The notes under the pieces were generated by a model. That model saw nothing but the letters and a program-made list of their open reading frames with translations, was not told the DNA's origin and did no database searches. A program made the position numbers and the translations under genes. This document shows, in pieces, positions 51,161-60,866 of a stretch of DNA of 64,000 nt. The stretch comes from Microbispora sp. ZYX-F-249 (GTDB lineage: Bacteria; Actinomycetota; Actinomycetes; Streptosporangiales; Streptosporangiaceae), in contig NZ_JBDJAW010000005.1 in NCBI RefSeq assembly GCF_039649665.1, positions 1 to 64,000 on the forward strand. Direction: 5' to 3'. Numbering within the stretch: position 1 is the stretch's first letter; every line of letters starts with the position of its first letter.

Positions 51161-52102
51161 TCAGGCGGTCTCCCGCAGATGTCGCGCGTGGGCCGCGGCC
51201 AGCCGGCCGCCGACCTCGGCCGTGCTGACGAGCACGGACATGTTCGCTTTGGACGACCGGCCCTCGGTGGCCGCGTCCACGGCGCGCATGAGGTACTTCG
51301 TGATCGCGTTGCCGCGGACGCCGTCGCGCTCGGCCGCGGCCATCGCGCCGGTGATGGCGGCGTCCACCTCGGACGCGTCGATCGCGTCCTCCTCCCGCAC
51401 CGGTGTGGTGATCAGGAAGGAGCTGCGGTTGCCCAGCGCCCAGTGGTTCTCCACCGCCCGCGCGATCACCCCCTCGTCGTCGAGCCGCTGCGGGCTGCGC
51501 AGGCCGCTGGACACGCAGTAGAAGGCGGGGAAGTCGTCCGACCGGTACGACACCACCGGCACGCAGTGGGTCTCCAGGAACTCCAAGGTCAGGCCCAGGT
51601 CGAGGATGCTCTTGGCCCCGGCGCAGACGACCGCCACCTTCGACCGGGTGAACTGGATCAGGTCGGAGGAGACGTCCATCGTCTTCTCCGCGCCCCGGTG
51701 AACGCCGCCGATGCCGGCCGACGAGAAGAACGGGATGCCGGCCAGCTCGGCCGCCACCACCGAGCTGGCCACCGTCAGCGCGCCGAGCCCGCCCTGGGCG
51801 AGGATCACCGGCAGGTCCCGGCTGCTGACCTTGGGGATGCCGGGGGTCGAGGCGAACCGCTCGACGTCCTCGTCCGTCATGCCGACCCTGAACCGGCCGC
51901 CCTCGACGCAGATCGTGGCCGGGACCGCACCCCCGGCGCGGACCGCGTCCTCGACCTTCCGCGCGGTGGCGGCGTTGTCCGGATAGGGCAGGCCGTGGGT
52001 GATGACGTTCGACTCCAGCGCCACCACCGGCCGGCCCTCGGCCAGTGCGTCCGCGACCTCCTCGCTGTACACCAGCGGGACGCGCCCGTGCTCCCAAGTC
52101 AT
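51161..52102 (-). CDS. psuG: Pseudouridine-5'-phosphate glycosidase (PsuG/IndA type)
   Basis: 313 residues. PsuG makes or breaks the C-C glycosidic bond: uracil plus ribose 5-phosphate and pseudouridine 5'-phosphate. Family marks are '[16 protein letters not shown]' (Glu30), '[13 protein letters not shown]' and the ring-opening Lys164 in '[13 protein letters not shown]'. ATG 52102 is 9 bp after the NRPS-tautomerase stop, so it is cotranscribed. Beside an indigoidine synthetase this gene is called indA, or minB in minimycin clusters, where it joins the base to ribose 5-phosphate. Confidence 0.92.
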
Positions 52103-52111
52103 CGTCGCCCC

Positions 52112-52351
52112 TCAGTTCGCGGCCGGGCCGTAGTTCGGCAGCTTGTTCAGTTTGTGCTTCTGGTTGAGGATCTCCGGGATGTAGACCTTCTCGTCCCACT
52201 GCTCCTGCGCGACCGGCTCCAGGATGATCGACACCGAGCCCTCCTCGCAGCCGAAGGCGCTCGTCATCGCCTTGGTCACGGCCGAAACCAGGTCGGAGTG
52301 CTGCTGCTCGGTGAGGGGGACGGGGAAGTGCTTGATGCTGACGTGCGGCAT
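52112..52351 (-). CDS. Tautomerase (4-OT family), possible internally started gene
   Basis: 79 residues beginning 'MPHVSIKHFPVPLTEQQHSD', with Pro right after Met, as needed for the N-terminal proline base of tautomerases. Its ATG 52351 has a perfect AAGGAG 6 nt upstream (CTCCTT at 52358-52363 on the plus strand), though the frame is continuous with the NRPS. Free tautomerase can therefore be made by internal initiation, while read-through gives a fused domain whose proline is not N-terminal. Confidence 0.7.
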   Translation of the reverse strand: MPHVSIKHFPVPLTEQQHSDLVSAVTKAMTSAFGCEEGSVSIILEPVAQEQWDEKVYIPEILNQKHKLNKLPNYGPAAN

Positions 52352-55300
52352 GTTGATCTCCTTACGGTCGGTCCCGAGACGATCCCCGATGGCTCCGGCC
52401 AGCTCGTCGATGTCCGGCTCCCTGAGCAGGCCGTAGTGATCGGCTTCCAGGTCGACGACGACCGGGGGCGTCGCCGAGTAGCCGCTGCTGTTCTCCAGGA
52501 ACGAGTAGTCGTCGCCCCTGGCCTTGAAGATGGTGATCGGCGCGTCGATCCGGCGCCGGGCCAGCTCGCGGAAGGTGTAATCGAACTCGAAGGTCTCGCC
52601 CACCACGCGCATGATCCGGCGCACCAGGTCGATGTCCAGGTCGGGGAAGTTGCGGTGGACGAAGGCCGCGAAGCTCTCCTCGTCCACGGCCTCGGCCAGG
52701 CACCGCTCCAGCAGCGGCCCGGTGATCGTGCCCGCGAAGACCGAGAACAGGATCGTCACGTACGCCTCGTTGCCGAAGCCGGCCTCGCGCTCGTGCCCGG
52801 GCGCGGCCGCGGAGCGGACCTTCGGCGATCCCGGCGCGATCAGGAACAGGTGCTCCACCCGCTCGCCGGCCTGCTCCAGCTGGTAGGCGGCCTCGAACGC
52901 GACGCGCGCGCCGAAGGAGTATCCCCACAGCGTGTACGGCCCGGACGGCTGCACCCGCCGGATGGCCTTGACGTCCTCGGCCGCCATCTCGCCGATGGTC
53001 GCGTACGGGACCTCCTCGGGGTTGATCCCGTACGCCTGGACGCCGTAGAAGGGCCGGGCAGCGCCCATCCTGGCGGCCAGCGTGCGCAGGTTCATCGTGT
53101 AGCCGCCGAGGCCGGGCCAGCAGTAGACGGGCCGGCCCGCGCCCTCCCGCTGCAGCGGCACCAGCCGGGAGCACGCCTCGGCGTCGCGTCCGTCGACCCG
53201 CCTGGCGAGCTTCTCGATCGTGGGGCACTCGAACAGCACCTGGAGGGGCAGCGAGCCGCAGAACTCCCGGTTGATCTTGTTGATCAGCCCGACGGCGATG
53301 AGCGAGTTCCCGCCGGAGGCGAAGAAGTCGTCCTCCACCGAGACGGTCTCCCGCTTCATCGCCTTCTTCCACAGGTCGGCGATCCGGCGTTCCGTCATGG
53401 TCCGCGGCGCGACGTACGGCCGGTCGTCGTTGTCCGCGTTCGTCGCCTCGGACCCGGCCAGCGCCTTGACGTCGATCTTGCCGTTCGCCGTGAACGGGAG
53501 CCGGTCCAGCACGACGACCTTGTTCGGGATCATGTAGTCCGGCAGGAAATTGATCAGGTCGTCCCTGATCATCTCCGCCGGTCCCTTCATGTGGACCAGG
53601 TCCTCCTTCATCCCCTCGCTCAACCGCTGCTCGTCGCTCACGCGGCCGCCGATGAAGAAGTAGGACGGGCCGGTGGGCCGGCCGGCCGAGCGCAGGATGC
53701 CGTCGATCCGGCGCGCCGAGGGCAGGTCGTCGCCGGACTTCGAGCTGTATCCGGACGACATGAACCCGATGTTGACGTCGTTCATCGACAGGTGCTGCAG
53801 CGTGCGGCCCAGGTCGATGTAGCGCAGCCAGTCCTCGTCGTTCCTGCTGACCGCCGAGACGCCGATGGAGGCCCGGTCGTAGACCTGCTGGTTGATCGCG
53901 ATGACCTGCTTCTTGAGGATGAGCTCGTCGGAGATCAGGCGGAGCCGCCCGTTCTCGTAGGCGTACTGGCCCGCCCGCAGGTCGGGGACCCGGCCGGGAT
54001 GCGCCTGGACGTAGAGGTCGACCTCGTCCGGGCGCGGCCCCGCGTACGGGACCAGCTCGAACGTGCCGAGGTAGTGGTCCTCGTCGGCGCAGTCCAGGTG
54101 GTCCTTCGTGGCCGGCGCGTACTCCAGGGCCCTGATGTCGAGGCCGTGCCCGGGCAGCACCTCCTCGAACAGGCCGACCATGTGGCCGGTCTCGATCTCC
54201 AGGACCTCGCGGATGTTGTTCTTGTAGACCGGTTCTATCGCCCGCTTCTTGCCGACGAAGTGCACCTTCACCCGGGGCTCCGGCCCCGCGGCGGCCGGCC
54301 CGATCAGGACGAGCCGGTGGTGCACCGGATGGTGGTAGTAGTAGCCCGGCCGCAGGCCGTCCATCCCGGTGATCTCGAGGTAGAGCTGGGTCGCGTACAA
54401 CGCCCCGGGCGAGGCGTACGCGTACTTCGGCAGCAGGCGCTCCTCGCTGATGTGCTGGCCGAAGTGCCGCAGGATCTCGCCGAGCTCCGCCAGGCCGAGG
54501 GTGTCCAGGCCGCGGGGGTCCGCGCCCTCGGCCCGCCTGGACAGCAGCTTCAGGATGTCGCCCCGGCCGACCTCCCCGCCCTCGTAGAACCGGTAGGTCT
54601 TGCGGGCGAAGGCCAGCGCGCGCTGCCGCGCGGTCGCCTGCCCGCCCGGCAGGTCGACGACCGGCCTGCCGTCGAGCTCCGCGGCGTCCCTGACTCCGGG
54701 GTTGGACAGCTGCGCCCTGACCTGGAGCCTGCTCGCCTTGGACTGGTGGTGGGCGCCGTGGTTGCCCTGGTCCATCAGCGCCGCTTCCTTGGGATTAAGC
54801 TCGACGCAGGCGATCAGGTTCTGGAATCCGGTGCGCGGGTCGTCCTTGACGATGACCGCGGCGTGCTTGACCCAGTCGTGGGTCTCGATCGCCAGCTTGA
54901 TCTCGTCCAGCTCGACCCGGAACCCCCGCAGCTTGATCTGGTTGTCCGCGCGGCCGACGAACTGGACGGTGCCGTCGGCGTTCCAGTACGCGAGGTCGCC
55001 GGTCCTGAACAACCTGCCCTCGCCGAACGGGTTGTGCACGAACCGCTCCGCGGTCAGCTCGGGCCGGTGCAGGTAGCCGCGGGCGACCTGGACGCCGCCG
55101 ATGAACAGCTCGCCGATCTCGCCGACGGCCACCGGCGACCCGCCCAGGTCGAGGATGTGATAGTCGGTGTGGTCGACCGGCGCGCCGATAGAGATCGCGT
55201 GCGGGCCCTCGCCGACGGCCGCCCGGTCCACCGTGTACGCCGAGGAGTTGATCGTGCATTCGGTGGGGCCGTACAGGTTGACCAGCTCGCACCCGGGCAG

Positions 55301-56197
55301 GGTGTCGAAAAAGCCGGTCGCCAGCGTCTTGGACAGGACCTCGCCGCCGGTGAAGACCTGCGTCAGCGACGTGCAGCCGTGCAGTTCCTCGGTGTCCACG
55401 AGCGCCGTCAGCAGCGTCGGGACGCATTGCAGCGTGGTGACCTCGTGCGTCCTGATGACGTCGATCAGCCGCTCGGCGTCCCGGTAGACGCCCGGCGGGC
55501 CCACGACGACCACCGCGCCGCAGACCGGCGCGAGGATCTCCCACTGCGCCGCGTCGAAGCTCATCGGCGTCTTCTGCAGAACCGTCCTGCCGTGGCCGAT
55601 CCCGTAGCCCGCCCGCAGCCACCGCATCTGGCTGACGATGCTGCGGTGCTCGATCATCACCCCTTTCGGCTTGCCGGTGCTGCCGGAGGTGTAGATGACG
55701 TACGCGAGGTTGCCCGGCCGCAGGCCCGGGTGACGGTCGCCTCCGGGCGAGCCCGCGGCCCCCGCCGCGTCCTTCAGAGTGACGATTCTCGTCCCGGCGG
55801 GCGCCAGCTCGGTCAGCCTCGCCACGAGCTCGTCCTGAGTGACGACGACCCGCACGCCGGCGTCCTCGATCATGTAGCGGAGGCGCTCTTCCGGATATTC
55901 GGGGGACAGCGGGAGGTAGGCGCCGCCGGCCCGCAGGATGCCCCACACCCCGACCATCAGGTCGATCGACGGCTCGACGAACAGCCCCACGCATTCGTCG
56001 AGGTCCACGCCGAGCTCCCGCAGGTGCCCGCCGAGATCCGCGCCGCCCTCCGCGAGCTCGCGGAAGGTGAGCCGCCGGTCGCCGCAGACGACCGCTGTGT
56101 CGTCCGGGCGCGTCCGGGCCTGTGCGTCGAGCAGATCGGGAAGACAGACGTCCTCGGGTGATTCCCGCCTCGCCTCAGTGACTGGAGTGGTGGTCAT
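52112..56197 (-). CDS. Indigoidine-type NRPS (A-Ox-T-TE) with C-terminal tautomerase domain
   Basis: 1361 residues. The first 1282 match BpsA/IndC in order and length: A domain (A3 'YTSGSTGKPKGV' 169-180; A8 about 425-433), an FMN oxidase domain inserted at about 480-870 ('KTYRFYEGGEVGRGDILKLL'), the end of A ('LPFTANGKIDVKAL', A10), T domain with Ser965 ('FASGGNSLIAVG') and TE with Ser1094 ('GYSFGARVAF') and His1254. These enzymes cyclise and oxidise two L-Gln to indigoidine. Residues 1283-1361 are a 4-oxalocrotonate-tautomerase-like domain in frame with no stop between. ATG 56197 follows GGGGGAGG. Confidence 0.9.
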   Translation of the reverse strand: MTTTPVTEARRESPEDVCLPDLLDAQARTRPDDTAVVCGDRRLTFRELAEGGADLGGHLRELGVDLDECVGLFVEPSIDLMVGVWGILRAGGAYLPLSPEYPEERLRYMIEDAGVRVVVTQDELVARLTELAPAGTRIVTLKDAAGAAGSPGGDRHPGLRPGNLAYVIYTSGSTGKPKGVMIEHRSIVSQMRWLRAGYGIGHGRTVLQKTPMSFDAAQWEILAPVCGAVVVVGPPGVYRDAERLIDVIRTHEVTTLQCVPTLLTALVDTEELHGCTSLTQVFTGGEVLSKTLATGFFDTLPGCELVNLYGPTECTINSSAYTVDRAAVGEGPHAISIGAPVDHTDYHILDLGGSPVAVGEIGELFIGGVQVARGYLHRPELTAERFVHNPFGEGRLFRTGDLAYWNADGTVQFVGRADNQIKLRGFRVELDEIKLAIETHDWVKHAAVIVKDDPRTGFQNLIACVELNPKEAALMDQGNHGAHHQSKASRLQVRAQLSNPGVRDAAELDGRPVVDLPGGQATARQRALAFARKTYRFYEGGEVGRGDILKLLSRRAEGADPRGLDTLGLAELGEILRHFGQHISEERLLPKYAYASPGALYATQLYLEITGMDGLRPGYYYHHPVHHRLVLIGPAAAGPEPRVKVHFVGKKRAIEPVYKNNIREVLEIETGHMVGLFEEVLPGHGLDIRALEYAPATKDHLDCADEDHYLGTFELVPYAGPRPDEVDLYVQAHPGRVPDLRAGQYAYENGRLRLISDELILKKQVIAINQQVYDRASIGVSAVSRNDEDWLRYIDLGRTLQHLSMNDVNIGFMSSGYSSKSGDDLPSARRIDGILRSAGRPTGPSYFFIGGRVSDEQRLSEGMKEDLVHMKGPAEMIRDDLINFLPDYMIPNKVVVLDRLPFTANGKIDVKALAGSEATNADNDDRPYVAPRTMTERRIADLWKKAMKRETVSVEDDFFASGGNSLIAVGLINKINREFCGSLPLQVLFECPTIEKLARRVDGRDAEACSRLVPLQREGAGRPVYCWPGLGGYTMNLRTLAARMGAARPFYGVQAYGINPEEVPYATIGEMAAEDVKAIRRVQPSGPYTLWGYSFGARVAFEAAYQLEQAGERVEHLFLIAPGSPKVRSAAAPGHEREAGFGNEAYVTILFSVFAGTITGPLLERCLAEAVDEESFAAFVHRNFPDLDIDLVRRIMRVVGETFEFDYTFRELARRRIDAPITIFKARGDDYSFLENSSGYSATPPVVVDLEADHYGLLREPDIDELAGAIGDRLGTDRKEINMPHVSIKHFPVPLTEQQHSDLVSAVTKAMTSAFGCEEGSVSIILEPVAQEQWDEKVYIPEILNQKHKLNKLPNYGPAAN

Positions 56198-56400
56198 TTC
56201 CTCCCCCTGCGATGAGCGGACAAGAGTTGGTGGGAAGCCGCGGCCCTCGGCGCCGTCGCGGCCCCGGCCGCGCCCGGCGCGGCCGGGGGCCGGACGACCG
56301 GCGCGATGATGGGCCGGATGAGCGGCGCGGCGGTGGGCCGGACGACCGGCGCGGCGGTGGGCCGGACGACCGGCAGCGCGACGCCGGCCGCGCCGATCAC
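56194..56400 (-). CDS. Short Pro/Ala-rich ORF between upp and the NRPS gene
   Basis: 68 codons from GTG 56400, its TGA overlapping the NRPS ATG as ATGA. The product contains repeated 'VVRPTAAP' octapeptides from the 24-bp DNA repeat. It could be a small coupled gene, a leader that tunes NRPS translation, or chance coding in a repeat. No family recognised and no ribosome-binding site certain. Confidence 0.35.
   Translation of the reverse strand: MIGAAGVALPVVRPTAAPVVRPTAAPLIRPIIAPVVRPPAAPGAAGAATAPRAAASHQLLSAHRRGRK
56291..56378. repeat. 24-bp imperfect tandem repeat
   Basis: Units at 56291, 56315 and 56339 (CGGACGACCGGCGCGGCGGT plus GGGC and variants) and a partial fourth at 56363. The period of 24 keeps the reading frame, giving the repeated octapeptide of the short ORF. 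Confidence 0.8.
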
Positions 56401-56413
56401 GCGGCGCCGGCGT

Positions 56414-57121
56414 TCATCGTGTGACGTCGGTGCCGAAGTACCGGTCGCCGAAGTCGCCGATGCCGGGAATCATGTAGGCGTTCTCGTTCAGCCGTTCCTC
56501 GATGGCCGACGTCACGATCCGCAGGTTCGGGTGGCGCGCGTGGACCGCGTCGATGCCCTCCGGCGCGGACAGCAGGGTGACGAAGACGATGTCGTCCACC
56601 GCGACCCCGTGGCCGAGCAGCACCTCGACGGCGGCCAGCGCGGTCCCGCCGGTGGCCAGCATCGGGTCCAGCAGCAGCACGCTCCGCCGGTCGATGTCCG
56701 CGGGCAGCGCGGAGTAGTACAGCCGCGGCAGTTTCGTCACCTTGTCCCGCTGGATCAGGATCTTGCCGATCCGCACTCCCGGCGACATCACCCGCAGCTC
56801 GTGCTCCATGCTCTCGCCGGCGCGCAGGACGGACACCCCGCAGATCCCCGTGGCCGGCCGCAGGCCGTGGTAGGTGCGCCCCACCGGGGTCTGCACGTCG
56901 AACGGCTCGTACGGCAGGAGGTCCAGGGCCGTCTCGATGAGCCGGCGGATGATCCGGCCCGACGTGGTGACGAAGCGCTCCGGGTCGGCGTGCCGGTCCC
57001 GGATGATCGTGTGCAGCGCCCGGAGCTGCCTGGTCTGCGGCAGCAGATGCACGGTGTCGAGCGCCGGCCCGGTCTTGGTCGCTGTCGTGGTCACTGTCGT
57101 GATCGCTGTCGTGATCGTCAC
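56414..57121 (-). CDS. upp: Uracil phosphoribosyltransferase
   Basis: Converts uracil and PRPP to UMP. 235 residues: a Thr-rich N-terminal tail ('TITTAITTVTTTATKT'), then a type I PRTase with the PRPP loop 'LLLDPMLATGGTALAAVEVL', 'GVSVLRAGESMEHELR' and the C-terminal 'IPGIGDFGDRYFGT'. GTG 57121 overlaps the stop of the TrpF-like gene (GTGA). Within a pathway that makes C-nucleosides it could recycle the base or act as a protection step; a second housekeeping upp is not visible here. Confidence 0.93.
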   Translation of the reverse strand: MTITTAITTVTTTATKTGPALDTVHLLPQTRQLRALHTIIRDRHADPERFVTTSGRIIRRLIETALDLLPYEPFDVQTPVGRTYHGLRPATGICGVSVLRAGESMEHELRVMSPGVRIGKILIQRDKVTKLPRLYYSALPADIDRRSVLLLDPMLATGGTALAAVEVLLGHGVAVDDIVFVTLLSAPEGIDAVHARHPNLRIVTSAIEERLNENAYMIPGIGDFGDRYFGTDVTR

Positions 57122-57810
57122 GCCTTCTCACCCGCCTGCAGCTCGGCGAAGGCCCTGCGGGCCTCGTCGACGAACTTGCGCACCTTCAGCCGGTCCTTCC
57201 GGCGGGTGACCGGGTCCTCCAGGCCGGTGTGCGCGTCGACGGCGGCCGGGCGGACCTCGGCGATCGCGGCCGCGACGTTGTCCGGGTTGAGCCCGCCGGC
57301 GAGCATCAGCGGCTTGGGCGAGATCCGGACCAGCTCCGCGCTGATCGACCAGTCGTGCAGCAGACCGGTGGCGCCCTTGGCACCGGTGGCCGGGTTGAAG
57401 GTGTCGGTGATGAACATGTCGACCCACTCGGCCGCCTCGTCCACGATCGTGGCCAGCTCGTCGAGGTTGTCCTGCTTGACCACGAGGCTCTTGAGCACGT
57501 ACAGGTCGGGGGCGATGCGCCGCAGCTTCCGCAGTTCCTCGCCCGTCACGTCGCCGTGCAGCTGGATCGCGGTGACGCCGAGCTCCGCGCAGAAGGTCTT
57601 GATCTCCTCGGCGTCGGTCAGGTAGGTGATCACGACACCCCTGTGCTCCGGCTGGATCTCCTTGACGATCGCCGCGGCGTCCGCTTCGGACAGGTCCTCG
57701 TTCTTCGCCGGCAGCCGCAGGGCGAAGCCGAGCCAGTCCGCGCCCTCCTCGCGGATCAGGTCCGCCTCGGCCTGGTCGATGACACCGGCCACCTGAATAA
57801 GTCCCTGCAT
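57118..57810 (-). CDS. TrpF-like TIM-barrel protein (phosphoribosylanthranilate isomerase family)
   Basis: 230 residues resembling TrpF: 'ADWLGFALRL', 'GVTAIQLHGDVTGEELRKL', 'MFITDTFNPATGAKGATG' (general-acid Asp position) and 'LMLAGGLNPDNVAAAI' (phosphate loop). The catalytic Cys of the N-terminal 'KxCG' motif is absent: the sequence reads 'IQVAGVID', so the ordinary Amadori rearrangement is unlikely. A pathway role on a ribosyl intermediate is possible. ATG 57810 follows AAAGGCGGG; first gene of the coupled operon with upp. Confidence 0.75.
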   Translation of the reverse strand: MQGLIQVAGVIDQAEADLIREEGADWLGFALRLPAKNEDLSEADAAAIVKEIQPEHRGVVITYLTDAEEIKTFCAELGVTAIQLHGDVTGEELRKLRRIAPDLYVLKSLVVKQDNLDELATIVDEAAEWVDMFITDTFNPATGAKGATGLLHDWSISAELVRISPKPLMLAGGLNPDNVAAAIAEVRPAAVDAHTGLEDPVTRRKDRLKVRKFVDEARRAFAELQAGEKA

Positions 57811-58347
57811 GTTGACCCGCCTTTCGAACCGGCCTCAGCGGCCTCGGTCGGAAACGAATTGCAATCGGCCATGAAACGATGGCATTGAGCTGCCCGCGAC
57901 AGTTCGGCCTTTTCGCACCGGAATCAGCAGCGGCACGAATATTCTGGCCTGGCGAGGCATATTCAGAATTGGCCGCGGCGCGCTTTTCTCACAACCCCTA
58001 GCAGCCCCACATGCATGCCAGGACGATCCGGGACACCTGCGGACTTTTCGGGTGCCCCAGAGCCGGCCGGGAAAATACGGCGGGCAACCCCATTCGACCC
58101 CTATCGGTGGGCGGCTCGCCCCGAATCGTGCACGGCTCTCGTTGACCCGGCGGAAAACGCGGAACTAGCCTCCGTTTCGGAGTGCCTCGAGCACGCGCGA
58201 GAAACGGCGGTGGTGATAATGCGCCACGGACAATCGCTCTCCCCGGATCATCCGCCGGCGCGGCTCCCCGCCCTCCGGCGCGCGATCGCCGGATCGCGCG
58301 CCCGTCCACGCCGCCGGGGCGCCGTCACCGGCCCCTCTGGCCAATCG
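57811..58347. other. Divergent regulatory region of the nucleoside-pathway genes
   Basis: About 540 bases between the TrpF-like gene (minus) and the MFS exporter (plus). The left 200 bases are relatively AT-rich and probably carry the operon promoter. No credible gene. The right edge runs into two palindromes at 58348-58380. Confidence 0.5.
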
Positions 58348-58380
58348 CTTAGCGCTAAGATAAAGTCTCTTAGTGCTAAG
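58348..58380 (+). promoter_or_regulatory. Two palindromic operators before the exporter
   Basis: CTTAGCGCTAAG (58348-58359, perfect) and CTTAGTGCTAAG (58369-58380, one central mismatch pair), centre to centre 21 bp, i.e. two helical turns. A TAAGAT box (58356-58361) lies between them. They resemble operators of MarR- or TetR-type repressors; the MarR gene at 59642 is the nearest candidate. Confidence 0.65.
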
Positions 58381-58454
58381 CGAAGTTGCCCAGCCGACGC
58401 ACGAACGTCCGCTCTCCCCTGCCCGGACCGGGCCACGCGCACAGGAGGAACCAG

Positions 58455-59645
58455 ATGACCGTCATCGAGTCCGTCTCCACGGAAGCCGGCAGACCGGATC
58501 GCGTGCCCATCAAGAACTGGCTCGCGGTGATCGCCGTCGCGCTGGGGACCTTCCTGGTGGTGACCGTCGAGAACCTGCCGATGGGCCTGCTCACGGCCAT
58601 CGGCGGCGGGCTGAACGTCACCGACGGCGAAGTCGGTCTCATGGTGACCGTGTCCGGTCTGGTCGCCGCCGTCACCGCCCCGCTGCTGCCCGTGGCGATC
58701 CGGGGGCTGGACCGGCGGGTGGTCCTGCTCGGCCTGATCCTGCTGGCGCTGGTGGCCAACGTCGTGTCCGCGCTGACTCCCACGTACGCCGTGCTCATGG
58801 TGGCGCGGCTGTTCGTGGGCGTCAGCATCGGCGGGTTCTGGGCGCTCGCGGCGGGCCTCGGCGTCCGCCTGGTCCCCGGGGCGCACGTCGCCAGGGCCAC
58901 TTCGCTGATCTTCTTCGGCGCCATGGCCGCCAACGTCCTCGGCGTCCCCGCGGGCACGCTCGTCGGCGAGCTCACCGGCTGGCGCGTCGCGTTCGGCGCG
59001 GTCGCCGTGGTCGCGCTCCTGCTGATGATCGCGCTGGCCGTGCTGCTGCCGCGGATGCCGGCGACCGAGCCGGTCCGGCTGCGCACGCTGGGCGAGCAGC
59101 TGCGCACGCCCGCCGTCCGGATCGGCGTCATCGCCACGTTCCTGCTGGTGTCCGGGCACTACGGCGCCTTCACGTTCGTCAGCCCGATCCTGCAGGACGT
59201 CTCCGGAGTGGGCGCGGCGTTCGTCGGCCCGCTGCTGCTGGCGTACGGCGTGGCCGGGATGGCCGGCAACCTCATCGCCGGCTCCTGGGCGGGCCGCAAC
59301 GTCCGCGGCACGATCGTCGTGGTCAGCGTCGCGCTCGCGGTCATCCTGGCGGCGTTCCCGTTCCTCGGCGGCAACGCGGTCACCGGGTCGATCCTGTTGA
59401 TCGCGTGGGGTTTCGCGTTCGGCGGCCTGCCGGTGAGCGTGCAGACCTGGATCATCAAGGCGGCGCCGCAGGGCGTCGAGGCCGCCACCGGGCTCAACAC
59501 CTGCATGTTCAACCTGGCGATCGCGCTGGGAGCGCTCTTCGCCAGCCTCATCGTCGGGGCGGTCGCCGTGACCGGCGTGCTGTGGGTCGCCGCGGGGCTC
59601 GTGGTCCTGACGTCGCTCGTGGTGTCGGGCGCCAAGCGGGTCTAG
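58455..59645 (+). CDS. MFS exporter, NepI-like (nucleoside efflux)
   Basis: 396 residues with 12 helices. The segment 'VARLFVGVSIGGFWALAAGL' then 'GVRLVPGAHVARATSLIFFG' is strikingly like the Escherichia coli purine-nucleoside exporter NepI, so export of a nucleoside product is plausible. ATG 58455 follows AGGAGGAACC. Preceded by twin palindromes, divergent from the TrpF/upp/NRPS/psuG operon. Overlaps the convergent marR by 4 bp. Confidence 0.85.
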   Translation: MTVIESVSTEAGRPDRVPIKNWLAVIAVALGTFLVVTVENLPMGLLTAIGGGLNVTDGEVGLMVTVSGLVAAVTAPLLPVAIRGLDRRVVLLGLILLALVANVVSALTPTYAVLMVARLFVGVSIGGFWALAAGLGVRLVPGAHVARATSLIFFGAMAANVLGVPAGTLVGELTGWRVAFGAVAVVALLLMIALAVLLPRMPATEPVRLRTLGEQLRTPAVRIGVIATFLLVSGHYGAFTFVSPILQDVSGVGAAFVGPLLLAYGVAGMAGNLIAGSWAGRNVRGTIVVVSVALAVILAAFPFLGGNAVTGSILLIAWGFAFGGLPVSVQTWIIKAAPQGVEAATGLNTCMFNLAIALGALFASLIVGAVAVTGVLWVAAGLVVLTSLVVSGAKRV

Positions 59646-60121
59646 TCGCCCAGCGACACCAGCAGTTGCCTGAGGGTCTCGGCCAGGTTCTCCCGCTGGG
59701 CGGGGGTGAGCCCGGCGAGCAGGCGCCGTTCGGTGTCCACGTGGTCGGGCAGGGCGCGGTCGATGAGCTCGCGGCCCGCCTCGGTCAGATCGACGTGGAC
59801 ACCGCGGCCGTCGACGTCGCTGGGCGTCCGGGTCACCAGGCCCCGCGCCTCCAGCCGGTCGAGGCGCTGGGTGACCGCCCCGGAAGTGATCATCGCCGAG
59901 CGCATCAGCTCGGCCGGGGCCTGCCGGCCGCCACGGCGGAGGGTGGCCAGGACGTCGAACGACGAGGGGTCCAGGTCGTGCTCGGCGAACGTACGGCGCA
60001 GCTCGTTGTTGACGAGCTGGGTCAGCCGCGACAGCCGGCCGAAGACCGCCATCGGAGACACGTCCAGGTCGGGGCGGGCATGGGCCCACTGCTGCAGAAC
60101 GTGGTCCACATGATCGGGCAC
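59642..60121 (-). CDS. MarR-family transcriptional regulator
   Basis: 159 residues: winged helix 'DPSSFDVLATLRRGGRQAPA', recognition region 'RSAMITSGAVTQRLDRLEA' and wing 'RTPSDVDGRGVHVDLTEAG'. GTG 60121 has TAACCT 6 nt upstream on the minus strand, suggesting a leaderless message overlapped by an inverted repeat (60129-60147). Divergent from the NAD(P)-binding gene and convergent with the NepI-like exporter. Probably controls one or both neighbours. Confidence 0.9.
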   Translation of the reverse strand: MPDHVDHVLQQWAHARPDLDVSPMAVFGRLSRLTQLVNNELRRTFAEHDLDPSSFDVLATLRRGGRQAPAELMRSAMITSGAVTQRLDRLEARGLVTRTPSDVDGRGVHVDLTEAGRELIDRALPDHVDTERRLLAGLTPAQRENLAETLRQLLVSLGD

Positions 60122-60128
60122 ATCGCAA

Positions 60129-60147
60129 GGTTACCGCCACGGCAACC
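60129..60147. promoter_or_regulatory. Probable MarR operator
   Basis: GGTTACCG and CGGCAACC around a 3-bp centre (GGTTACCGCCACGGCAACC), one mismatch, between marR and the divergent gene at 60174 and over the marR -10 box. The sequence differs from the CTTAG palindromes at 58348. Confidence 0.5.
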
Positions 60148-60173
60148 ACCCGGATCGAGAGGGAGTGACAGGC

Positions 60174-60866
60174 ATGCGCATCACGGTGTTCGGGGCGACG
60201 GGAAACGTGGGCAGGCGCGTGGTCGCCGAGGCCGTGTCCCGCGGACACGAGGTGACCGCCGTGGCCAGGACCGCGGTACGGCTCGCCGGGCTGTCCGGCG
60301 GGACGGACGGCGGGATGGACAGCGGGATGGACAGCGGGATGGGCGACGGGGTGCAGAGCAGGGTGCGCGTGCGTGCCGGTGACGCGACCGACGTGGACGA
60401 CGTCGTCGCGTCGATCACCGGGCAGGATCTGGTGATCACGGCGACCTGTCCGGCCCCCGGCAGCGAGGGCGAGCTGGTCACGGTCGCCACCACGCTGCTC
60501 GCGGCGTGCGCCAAGACCGGCGTGCGCCTGCTGCTCGTCGGCGGCGCGGGCAGCCTGACCGTCGAGGGCGGCGGCCTGCTGATGGACCGGCCGGGCTATC
60601 CGTCCTTCCTACTCCCCATCGCGTCGGCGTGCGTCGCGCAACTGGCGGCCTGCCGGGCCGACACCACCGCCGACTGGGCCTACCTGAGCCCGGCCGACGT
60701 GCTCGTCCCCGGTGTCCGGACCGGCCGGTACCGCGTGGGCGCCGACGAACTCGTCGTCGACGCCGACGGCGAGTCGCGCATCTCGATGGAGGACCTCGCG
60801 GTGGCGCTGCTGGACGAGGCCGAACGGCCCCGCCACCACCGGACCCGTTTCACCGTGGCGTACTGA
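60174..60866 (+). CDS. NAD(P)-binding protein (NmrA/SDR-like, YwnB type)
   Basis: About 230 residues of atypical short-chain dehydrogenase fold with the N-terminal 'ITVFGATGNVGRRVVAEAV', 'LLLVGGAGSLTVEGG' and 'DWAYLSPADVL'. A Gly/Asp/Met-rich insertion after residue 42 comes from a 12-bp repeat (60312-60347). ATG 60174 follows GAGAGGGAG. Divergent from marR, a common arrangement for such sensor or reductase proteins. Confidence 0.83.
   Translation: MRITVFGATGNVGRRVVAEAVSRGHEVTAVARTAVRLAGLSGGTDGGMDSGMDSGMGDGVQSRVRVRAGDATDVDDVVASITGQDLVITATCPAPGSEGELVTVATTLLAACAKTGVRLLLVGGAGSLTVEGGGLLMDRPGYPSFLLPIASACVAQLAACRADTTADWAYLSPADVLVPGVRTGRYRVGADELVVDADGESRISMEDLAVALLDEAERPRHHRTRFTVAY

Follow-up and report, generated by a model that had tools for sequence, protein, structure and literature searches.

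We analyzed a candidate C-nucleoside or indigoidine-type locus of Microbispora sp. ZYX-F-249, a soil actinobacterium with an 8.78 Mb genome, within a window of 64,000 nucleotides, i.e., bases 1–64000 of contig C5. The locus comprises a minus-strand operon of four genes, encoding a TrpF-like enzyme, a uracil phosphoribosyltransferase (UPRT, upp), an IndC/MinA-type non-ribosomal peptide synthetase (NRPS), and a PsuG/IndA-type C-glycosynthase, together with a divergent major facilitator superfamily (MFS) exporter and a MarR-family gene (Table 1). The cluster unit extends to the MarR gene, and probably also takes in the NAD(P)-binding gene that follows. The IndC-type NRPS, PsuG, and unusual TrpF-like gene on which the original prediction was built were all recovered by profile matches, and its statement that the operon has no HAD phosphatase or PsuK-type kinase held, with none among the seven genes assigned in 51,161–60,866.

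The minimycin (oxazinomycin) cluster of Streptomyces hygroscopicus, minA-minB-minC-minD-minT, provides the main reference: a review assigns these to an NRPS with a tautomerase (Tau) domain, a C-glycosynthase, an HAD plus DUF4243 protein, a self-protecting UPRT, and MinT (PMC8724604). The window shares the A-Ox-T-TE-Tau NRPS, the PsuG-like C-glycosynthase, the UPRT, and a transporter, but lacks MinC, in whose place stands the TrpF-like gene, with the MarR gene adjoining. No HAD plus DUF4243 gene was found in the operon or in the loci of congeners, and DUF4243 (PF14027) had no match in the window’s genome while three of three control genomes were positive. The original prediction had counted the UPRT and the tautomerase among added parts implying a new product; since both are standard for minimycin (the UPRT as MinD, the tautomerase as the Tau domain of MinA), they do not argue for one, although a C-nucleotide may still be made instead of the known nucleoside. 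NRPS, tautomerase, PsuG, UPRT, and exporter are thus all expected, and the real difference is the TrpF-like gene and the missing MinC.

This difference recurs across genomes. With the TrpF-like protein as query, named genomes yielded 89 relatives, of which the best 80 loci were returned. At ≥66% TrpF-like identity, 23 named loci from 11 actinobacterial genera, found by the TrpF-like protein alone, all held upp, NRPS, tautomerase, and psuG (23/23), so that the association goes beyond chance. In the other 57 loci, several of them short, neither psuG nor upp was matched at E 1e-10, and distant TrpF homologues (33–38% identity, L015–L019) lacked matches to upp, NRPS, and psuG over the stretches retrieved. 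A sample of 392 genomes from one genus, taken to be Streptomyces, yielded 22 hits at E 1e-120 with the window PsuG as query: 12 TrpF-class loci, 5 minimycin-like loci with HAD, DUF4243, and upp, 2 with HAD but without DUF4243 beside an NRPS (L169 and L047), 2 with psuG and HAD but without NRPS, and 1 on a cut contig. Plasmid records (9 with TrpF-like matches ≥52%, 3 of them, H2, H4, and H7, examined) added TrpF-class loci on Streptomyces lavendulae pSA3239, Corynebacterium aurimucosum pET44827, and Agrobacterium vitis pAvCG78a, plus one psuG and HAD locus, and a class-wide search added two HAD loci (L048 and L049).

Overall, 50 loci were scored, of which 38 were TrpF-like without HAD, 12 were HAD without TrpF-like, and none had both. 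The 12 include L176, L177, and L181, which have psuG and HAD but no NRPS and were not counted as NRPS loci, while L175, undecided on its 5.7 kb contig, was left out of the counts. L047 is also among the 12, but its contig starts inside the NRPS gene, with just 43 bases seen ahead of the NRPS match, and it was not among the 18 genus-sample NRPS loci visible on both sides; including it gives 12 TrpF-like versus 7 HAD of 19. Beside the 38 TrpF-class loci, no HAD or DUF4243 match occurred over the span seen, which reached at least 3.1 kb past psuG in 35 loci and less than 0.8 kb in the other three. A three-member HAD profile, run against all frames of ≥80 aa in the 23 named loci, gave no hit at E 10, its own members serving as positive control. 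Within the spans seen, these data strongly suggest two separate classes. In a PsuG tree whose deep part is unsure from long branches, L169 and L047 fall inside a starred set with TrpF loci, which indicates that exchange occurred with PsuG retained. The TrpF-class gene set spans at least 13 genera; in the literature searched, in which subscription papers were not searchable, we found neither the TrpF/HAD split nor the loss of the TrpF residues described, and no paper joining a C-nucleoside with a phosphoribosylanthranilate isomerase (PRAI) or a ribose-phosphate pyrophosphokinase.

The residue changes are, like the gene content, firm. The window protein matches the PRAI family with the corresponding predicted fold, but relative to PRAI of Thermotoga maritima (1nsj, 1lbm) the cluster proteins carry Cys7→Ala and Arg36→Glu/Asp, two positions that we take to be catalytic and substrate-binding, respectively. 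In the window protein these are Ala8 and Glu38, and Asp136 is the retained Asp126. Across cluster TrpF-like proteins, window included, the catalytic-Cys position is Ala in 39/39 and the anthranilate-binding Arg position is Glu or Asp in 39/39, with the catalytic Asp retained in all. Among 62 remote sequences, the former is Cys in 48 of 53 and the latter Arg in 52 of 61 with a residue there; position 194 is His in cluster proteins and mostly Ser in remote homologues. The nearest named record, from Microbispora sp. H13382, is 100% identical, and the gene is not universal in the genus (4 of 6 genomes sampled). Lone Cys-less paralogues were observed in metagenome-assembled genomes (MAGs) of Holophagae and Desulfomonile (L073:9248-9970, L074:9947-10660), alongside a canonical TrpF.

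Table 1 Features of the locus (positions in the window).
Feature	Position	Strand	Basis or remark
PsuG/IndA/MinB-type C-glycosynthase	51161..52102	-	Pfam Indigoidine_A 2e-108
IndC/BpsA/MinA-type single-module NRPS	52112..56197	-	A (Gln-type motifs), SagB-type oxidase, T, TE, C-terminal tautomerase
Tautomerase segment of NRPS frame	52112..52351	-	begins ATG-CCG (Met-Pro) at 52351
AAGGAG Shine-Dalgarno-like site	52358..52363	-	6 bases ahead of the tautomerase internal ATG
UPRT, presumed MinD-like role	56414..57121	-	family match 4e-74; 4-base overlap with TrpF-like gene
TrpF/PRAI-like (beta-alpha)8 enzyme, first gene of operon	57118..57810	-	family match 4.5e-20
Palindrome CTTAGCGCTAAG, probable MarR operator	58348..58359	.	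sequence read
Second palindrome CTTAGTGCTAAG, near-perfect	58369..58380	.	sequence read; 21 bases further
MFS exporter	58386..59645	+	start probably ATG 58455
MarR-family regulator	59642..60121	-	overlaps end of exporter gene
NAD(P)-binding protein, probable cluster member	60165..60866	+	homologue in C. aurimucosum cluster

The sequences themselves show the gene content, the split into classes, the residue changes, the predicted fold, and the palindromes; every chemical step, and the regulation, we infer. Our preferred though tentative reading is that the locus belongs to the minimycin/indigoidine (MinA-MinB) family as a TrpF-class variant, in which the TrpF-like enzyme isomerizes the C-nucleotide of PsuG. 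Specifically, the NRPS would turn L-glutamine into a reactive 3-amino-pyridine-2,6-dione, the tautomerase, freed by an internal translation start, would shift this base to the form that PsuG uses, and PsuG would couple it to ribose 5-phosphate. In minimycin clusters, HAD and DUF4243 enzymes would dephosphorylate and oxidize the resulting C-nucleotide, whereas here it would pass to the TrpF-like barrel; given the swap of TrpF-like with HAD, action on the phosphorylated product of PsuG is the most economical reading. The barrel would grip the phosphoribosyl part, Asp136 acting as a general acid that opens or re-closes the ribose ring, and without the base Cys the outcome would be an isomerized C-nucleotide (an anomer or a rearranged sugar), not an Amadori ketose. 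The UPRT would sustain the UMP pool as protection, the MFS protein would export the product, and MarR would sense it. In a more detailed and rather doubtful form of this proposal, the barrel would be a new kind of enzyme, in which the Asp would open the ribose of a 5'-phosphorylated aminopyridinedione C-nucleotide while the Glu/Asp in the old anthranilate pocket holds the base amino group, defining an unrecognized C-linked phospho-sugar/C-nucleotide class in at least 13 bacterial genera, including a Corynebacterium black-pigment plasmid.

C-nucleosides are scarce and useful, and to our knowledge few enzymes act on them after C–C bond formation. With the phosphatase consistently exchanged for a remodelled TrpF barrel, the known pathway would branch here, perhaps toward a product not yet known, and a second metabolite may go unnoticed in strains classed as indigoidine producers. 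This version of the operon is widespread and little noticed. The gene set itself was already printed in 2010 for the C. aurimucosum plasmid.

Several points weigh against C-nucleotide isomerization. The search for HAD relied on three related proteins and did not span all HAD families, three TrpF-class loci were cut near psuG, and for the genus-sample NRPS loci visible on both sides (12 TrpF-like versus 6 HAD, n = 18) the Fisher value of 5e-5 overstates independence because the loci are related. A housekeeping phosphatase could replace HAD, and loss of the catalytic Cys could signify a non-catalytic role. In genomes with lone TrpF-like relatives, some of them MAGs, PsuG was matched in 0 of 3, so the substrate of the enzyme need not be a PsuG product. 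The original prediction was to fall if relatives with the same operon made only indigoidine, which is partly touched by the same gene set on pSA3239 (whose indigoidine link we presume) and on the C. aurimucosum black-pigment plasmid.

The serious rival, less likely in our view, is accordingly an indigoidine-type pigment cluster, whose NRPS would make the dimerizing base while PsuG, UPRT, and TrpF-like proteins scavenge, detoxify, or recycle stray phosphoribosyl adducts. The IndC/BpsA-type NRPS with Gln adenylation motifs (a by-eye reading) is what such a cluster calls for. We take the pSA3239 locus to be the bpsA ‘indigoidine’ cluster BGC0000727, partly on PMC12766979, where fused versus separate tautomerases in indigoidine clusters are also discussed. 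This bpsA region of S. lavendulae CCM 3239 (formerly S. aureofaciens) holds trpF-like, upp, tautomerase, psuG, and NRPS genes together, and differs from the window in having EamA, alkene reductase, and phosphoribosyl pyrophosphate (PRPP) synthetase genes, a separate tautomerase, and the NRPS last. On pET44827, orf17-orf21 bring together genes for IndA, an NRPS, a phosphoribosyltransferase, a PRAI-like protein, and MarR, and are proposed as the black-pigment source, the two phosphoribosyl proteins perhaps helping to activate the NRPS (BMC Genomics 2010, PMC2830990), a role that we consider unlikely. Beyond these five, that plasmid shares the NAD(P)-binding gene, a transporter, and the same Cys-to-Ala change, but has a separate tautomerase gene, EamA rather than MFS, and an NRPS only 34% identical. 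A cluster of S. albus with IndA, tautomerase, IndB, and phosphoribosyltransferase is described as giving indigoidine after insertion of a strong promoter (PMC3992020), and an lbpA mutant of S. lavendulae FRI-5 as losing it (PMC12093942); the plasmid cluster of a different S. lavendulae strain, CCM 3239, is TrpF class. However, the same S. albus text states that the NRPS alone suffices for indigoidine, so that the joint retention of the additional genes across 13 genera must be explained otherwise, and FRI-5 is reported also to make minimycin and showdomycin (PMC12093942). In the literature searched, as far as its accessible text goes, no one reported looking for a C-nucleotide at the pSA3239 or C. 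aurimucosum clusters.

Other explanations fare worse than either C-nucleotide isomerization or a pigment cluster. In a look-alike of TrpD-TrpF, a biosynthetic UPRT would add the phosphoribosyl group of PRPP to a base nitrogen and the TrpF-like enzyme would rearrange the N-nucleotide. The two genes lie <250 bases apart in 37/38 loci (1.2 kb in L170), they share a single reading frame of 441 aa in an S. microflavus assembly (L064:10001-11326), and PRPP synthetase is matched in 18/38, which is compatible with a step that uses PRPP as well as with a self-protective supply of UMP. Yet UPRT also occurs in 8/12 HAD loci without TrpF-like, including 5/5 minimycin-like ones, its conserved motifs look ordinary, the base required for an Amadori step is gone, and PRPP synthetase was not seen in 20/38 loci, including the Microbispora kin of the window, which makes this scheme improbable. 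A minimycin cluster with MinC functions elsewhere in the genome would account for MinA, MinB, MinD, and a transporter, but was rejected as very unlikely: the genome has no DUF4243 match, against three positive controls, and the 38 TrpF-class loci have neither HAD nor DUF4243 matches beside them over the span seen. Least probable of all is a chance-placed isomerase of the tryptophan pathway. The gene is the sole PF00697 match in the genome, which would favor such a role, but actinobacteria of this kind use PriA; we rejected it on the replacement of both residues in 39/39 proteins and on the second, canonical TrpF in 2/3 genomes holding a lone TrpF-like gene.

The tautomerase, foreseen as part of the operon, is present, but it has no gene of its own and makes up the final 79 codons of the NRPS frame. 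This superfamily is described as relying on an N-terminal proline, some members lacking it, and the motif is appended to indigoidine synthetase (PMC5818174). In the window, the proline directly follows an in-frame ATG with AAGGAG upstream. Across 33 loci (the window, the 23 named loci, and, from the 22 of the genus sample, 9 picked as fused-looking or HAD-type), an in-frame fused start-Pro-His was found in 25, 24 of them with ≥5 Shine-Dalgarno bases, compared to a background of 80/1853 (4.3%) in-frame start codons inside NRPS genes. Nine of the 25 are Microbispora near-copies, while linkers and exact motif vary in the others. The eight loci without it are L064 and L069–L071 (no start codon), L068 and L072 (separate gene), L160 (frame not open from the match start), and L169 (outside the scanned range, though ATG-Pro with a 4-base match was seen); apparent fusions in L161 and L178 are artefacts, the tautomerase there following another gene. 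Free tautomerase may thus be made by internal initiation, and the ‘domain’ of MinA-type synthetases may be translated on its own and act with its N-terminal proline free. Micromonospora L069–L071 and Streptomyces L064, whose fused tautomerases have no start codon before the proline, argue against this as a general rule.

By profile, the NRPS has AMP-binding, T, and TE domains; its oxidase segment matches no Pfam model and, in NCBIfam, just a SagB-type model under its curated cut-off (TIGR03605, 3.8e-11). The whole protein is 57–68% identical to other IndC-type NRPSs of the genomes searched, and its Gln adenylation motifs were judged by visual comparison with the S. albus code DAWQFGLINK, not by a computed specificity prediction. 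In PsuG, the regions of the presumably catalytic Glu, Lys, and Asn are conserved. The UPRT shows the family match and conserved motifs, with PRK00129 above and TIGR01091 under its cut-off; its best solved-structure matches are 1upf/1bd3 at 4e-67, which we take to be Toxoplasma entries, ahead of 1i5e at 6e-37, presumably the best bacterial-type entry. The exporter is a divergent MFS protein as described earlier, but the NepI identity given to it was rejected, with 169 bits against an NCBIfam cut-off of 584; PRK03545 gave a better score, 224 bits, but likewise fell short of its own threshold of 401. Upstream of it, the two palindromes have the form CTTAGCNCTAAG, for which a chance expectation of 0.08 is only indicative, the pattern being derived from this same site. 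The motif recurs in 6 of 9 Microbispora loci (L050–L054 and L056; not L055, L057, or L062) and in L058, and may serve as a MarR operator.

Some TrpF-class loci hold further genes (FMN reductase-like, DJ-1/PfpI, alpha/beta hydrolase, alkene reductase, EamA exporter); queries for these and for PRPP synthetase had no match in the eight loci with the window’s own arrangement (L050–L057). Microbispora corallina carries two different TrpF-class clusters (L057 and L062). L048 and L049 have an IndA-HAD-UPRT-EamA-NRPS cluster without tautomerase, lying between what we read as an EF-Tu gene and ribosomal-protein-sized genes. Elsewhere in the window’s genome are another UPRT, a second PsuG on C2 (L020:9189-10987; 42% identical), followed by a gene that reads as kinase-like, and a second IndC-type NRPS (L038, G000:C15:90871-94689; also L039, G299:C30; 64% identical). 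For the L038/L039 NRPS, the tautomerase is separate and psuG is not matched in the vicinity; its neighbors read as hexapeptide/ATP-grasp, MFS, methyltransferase, and cysK-like genes.
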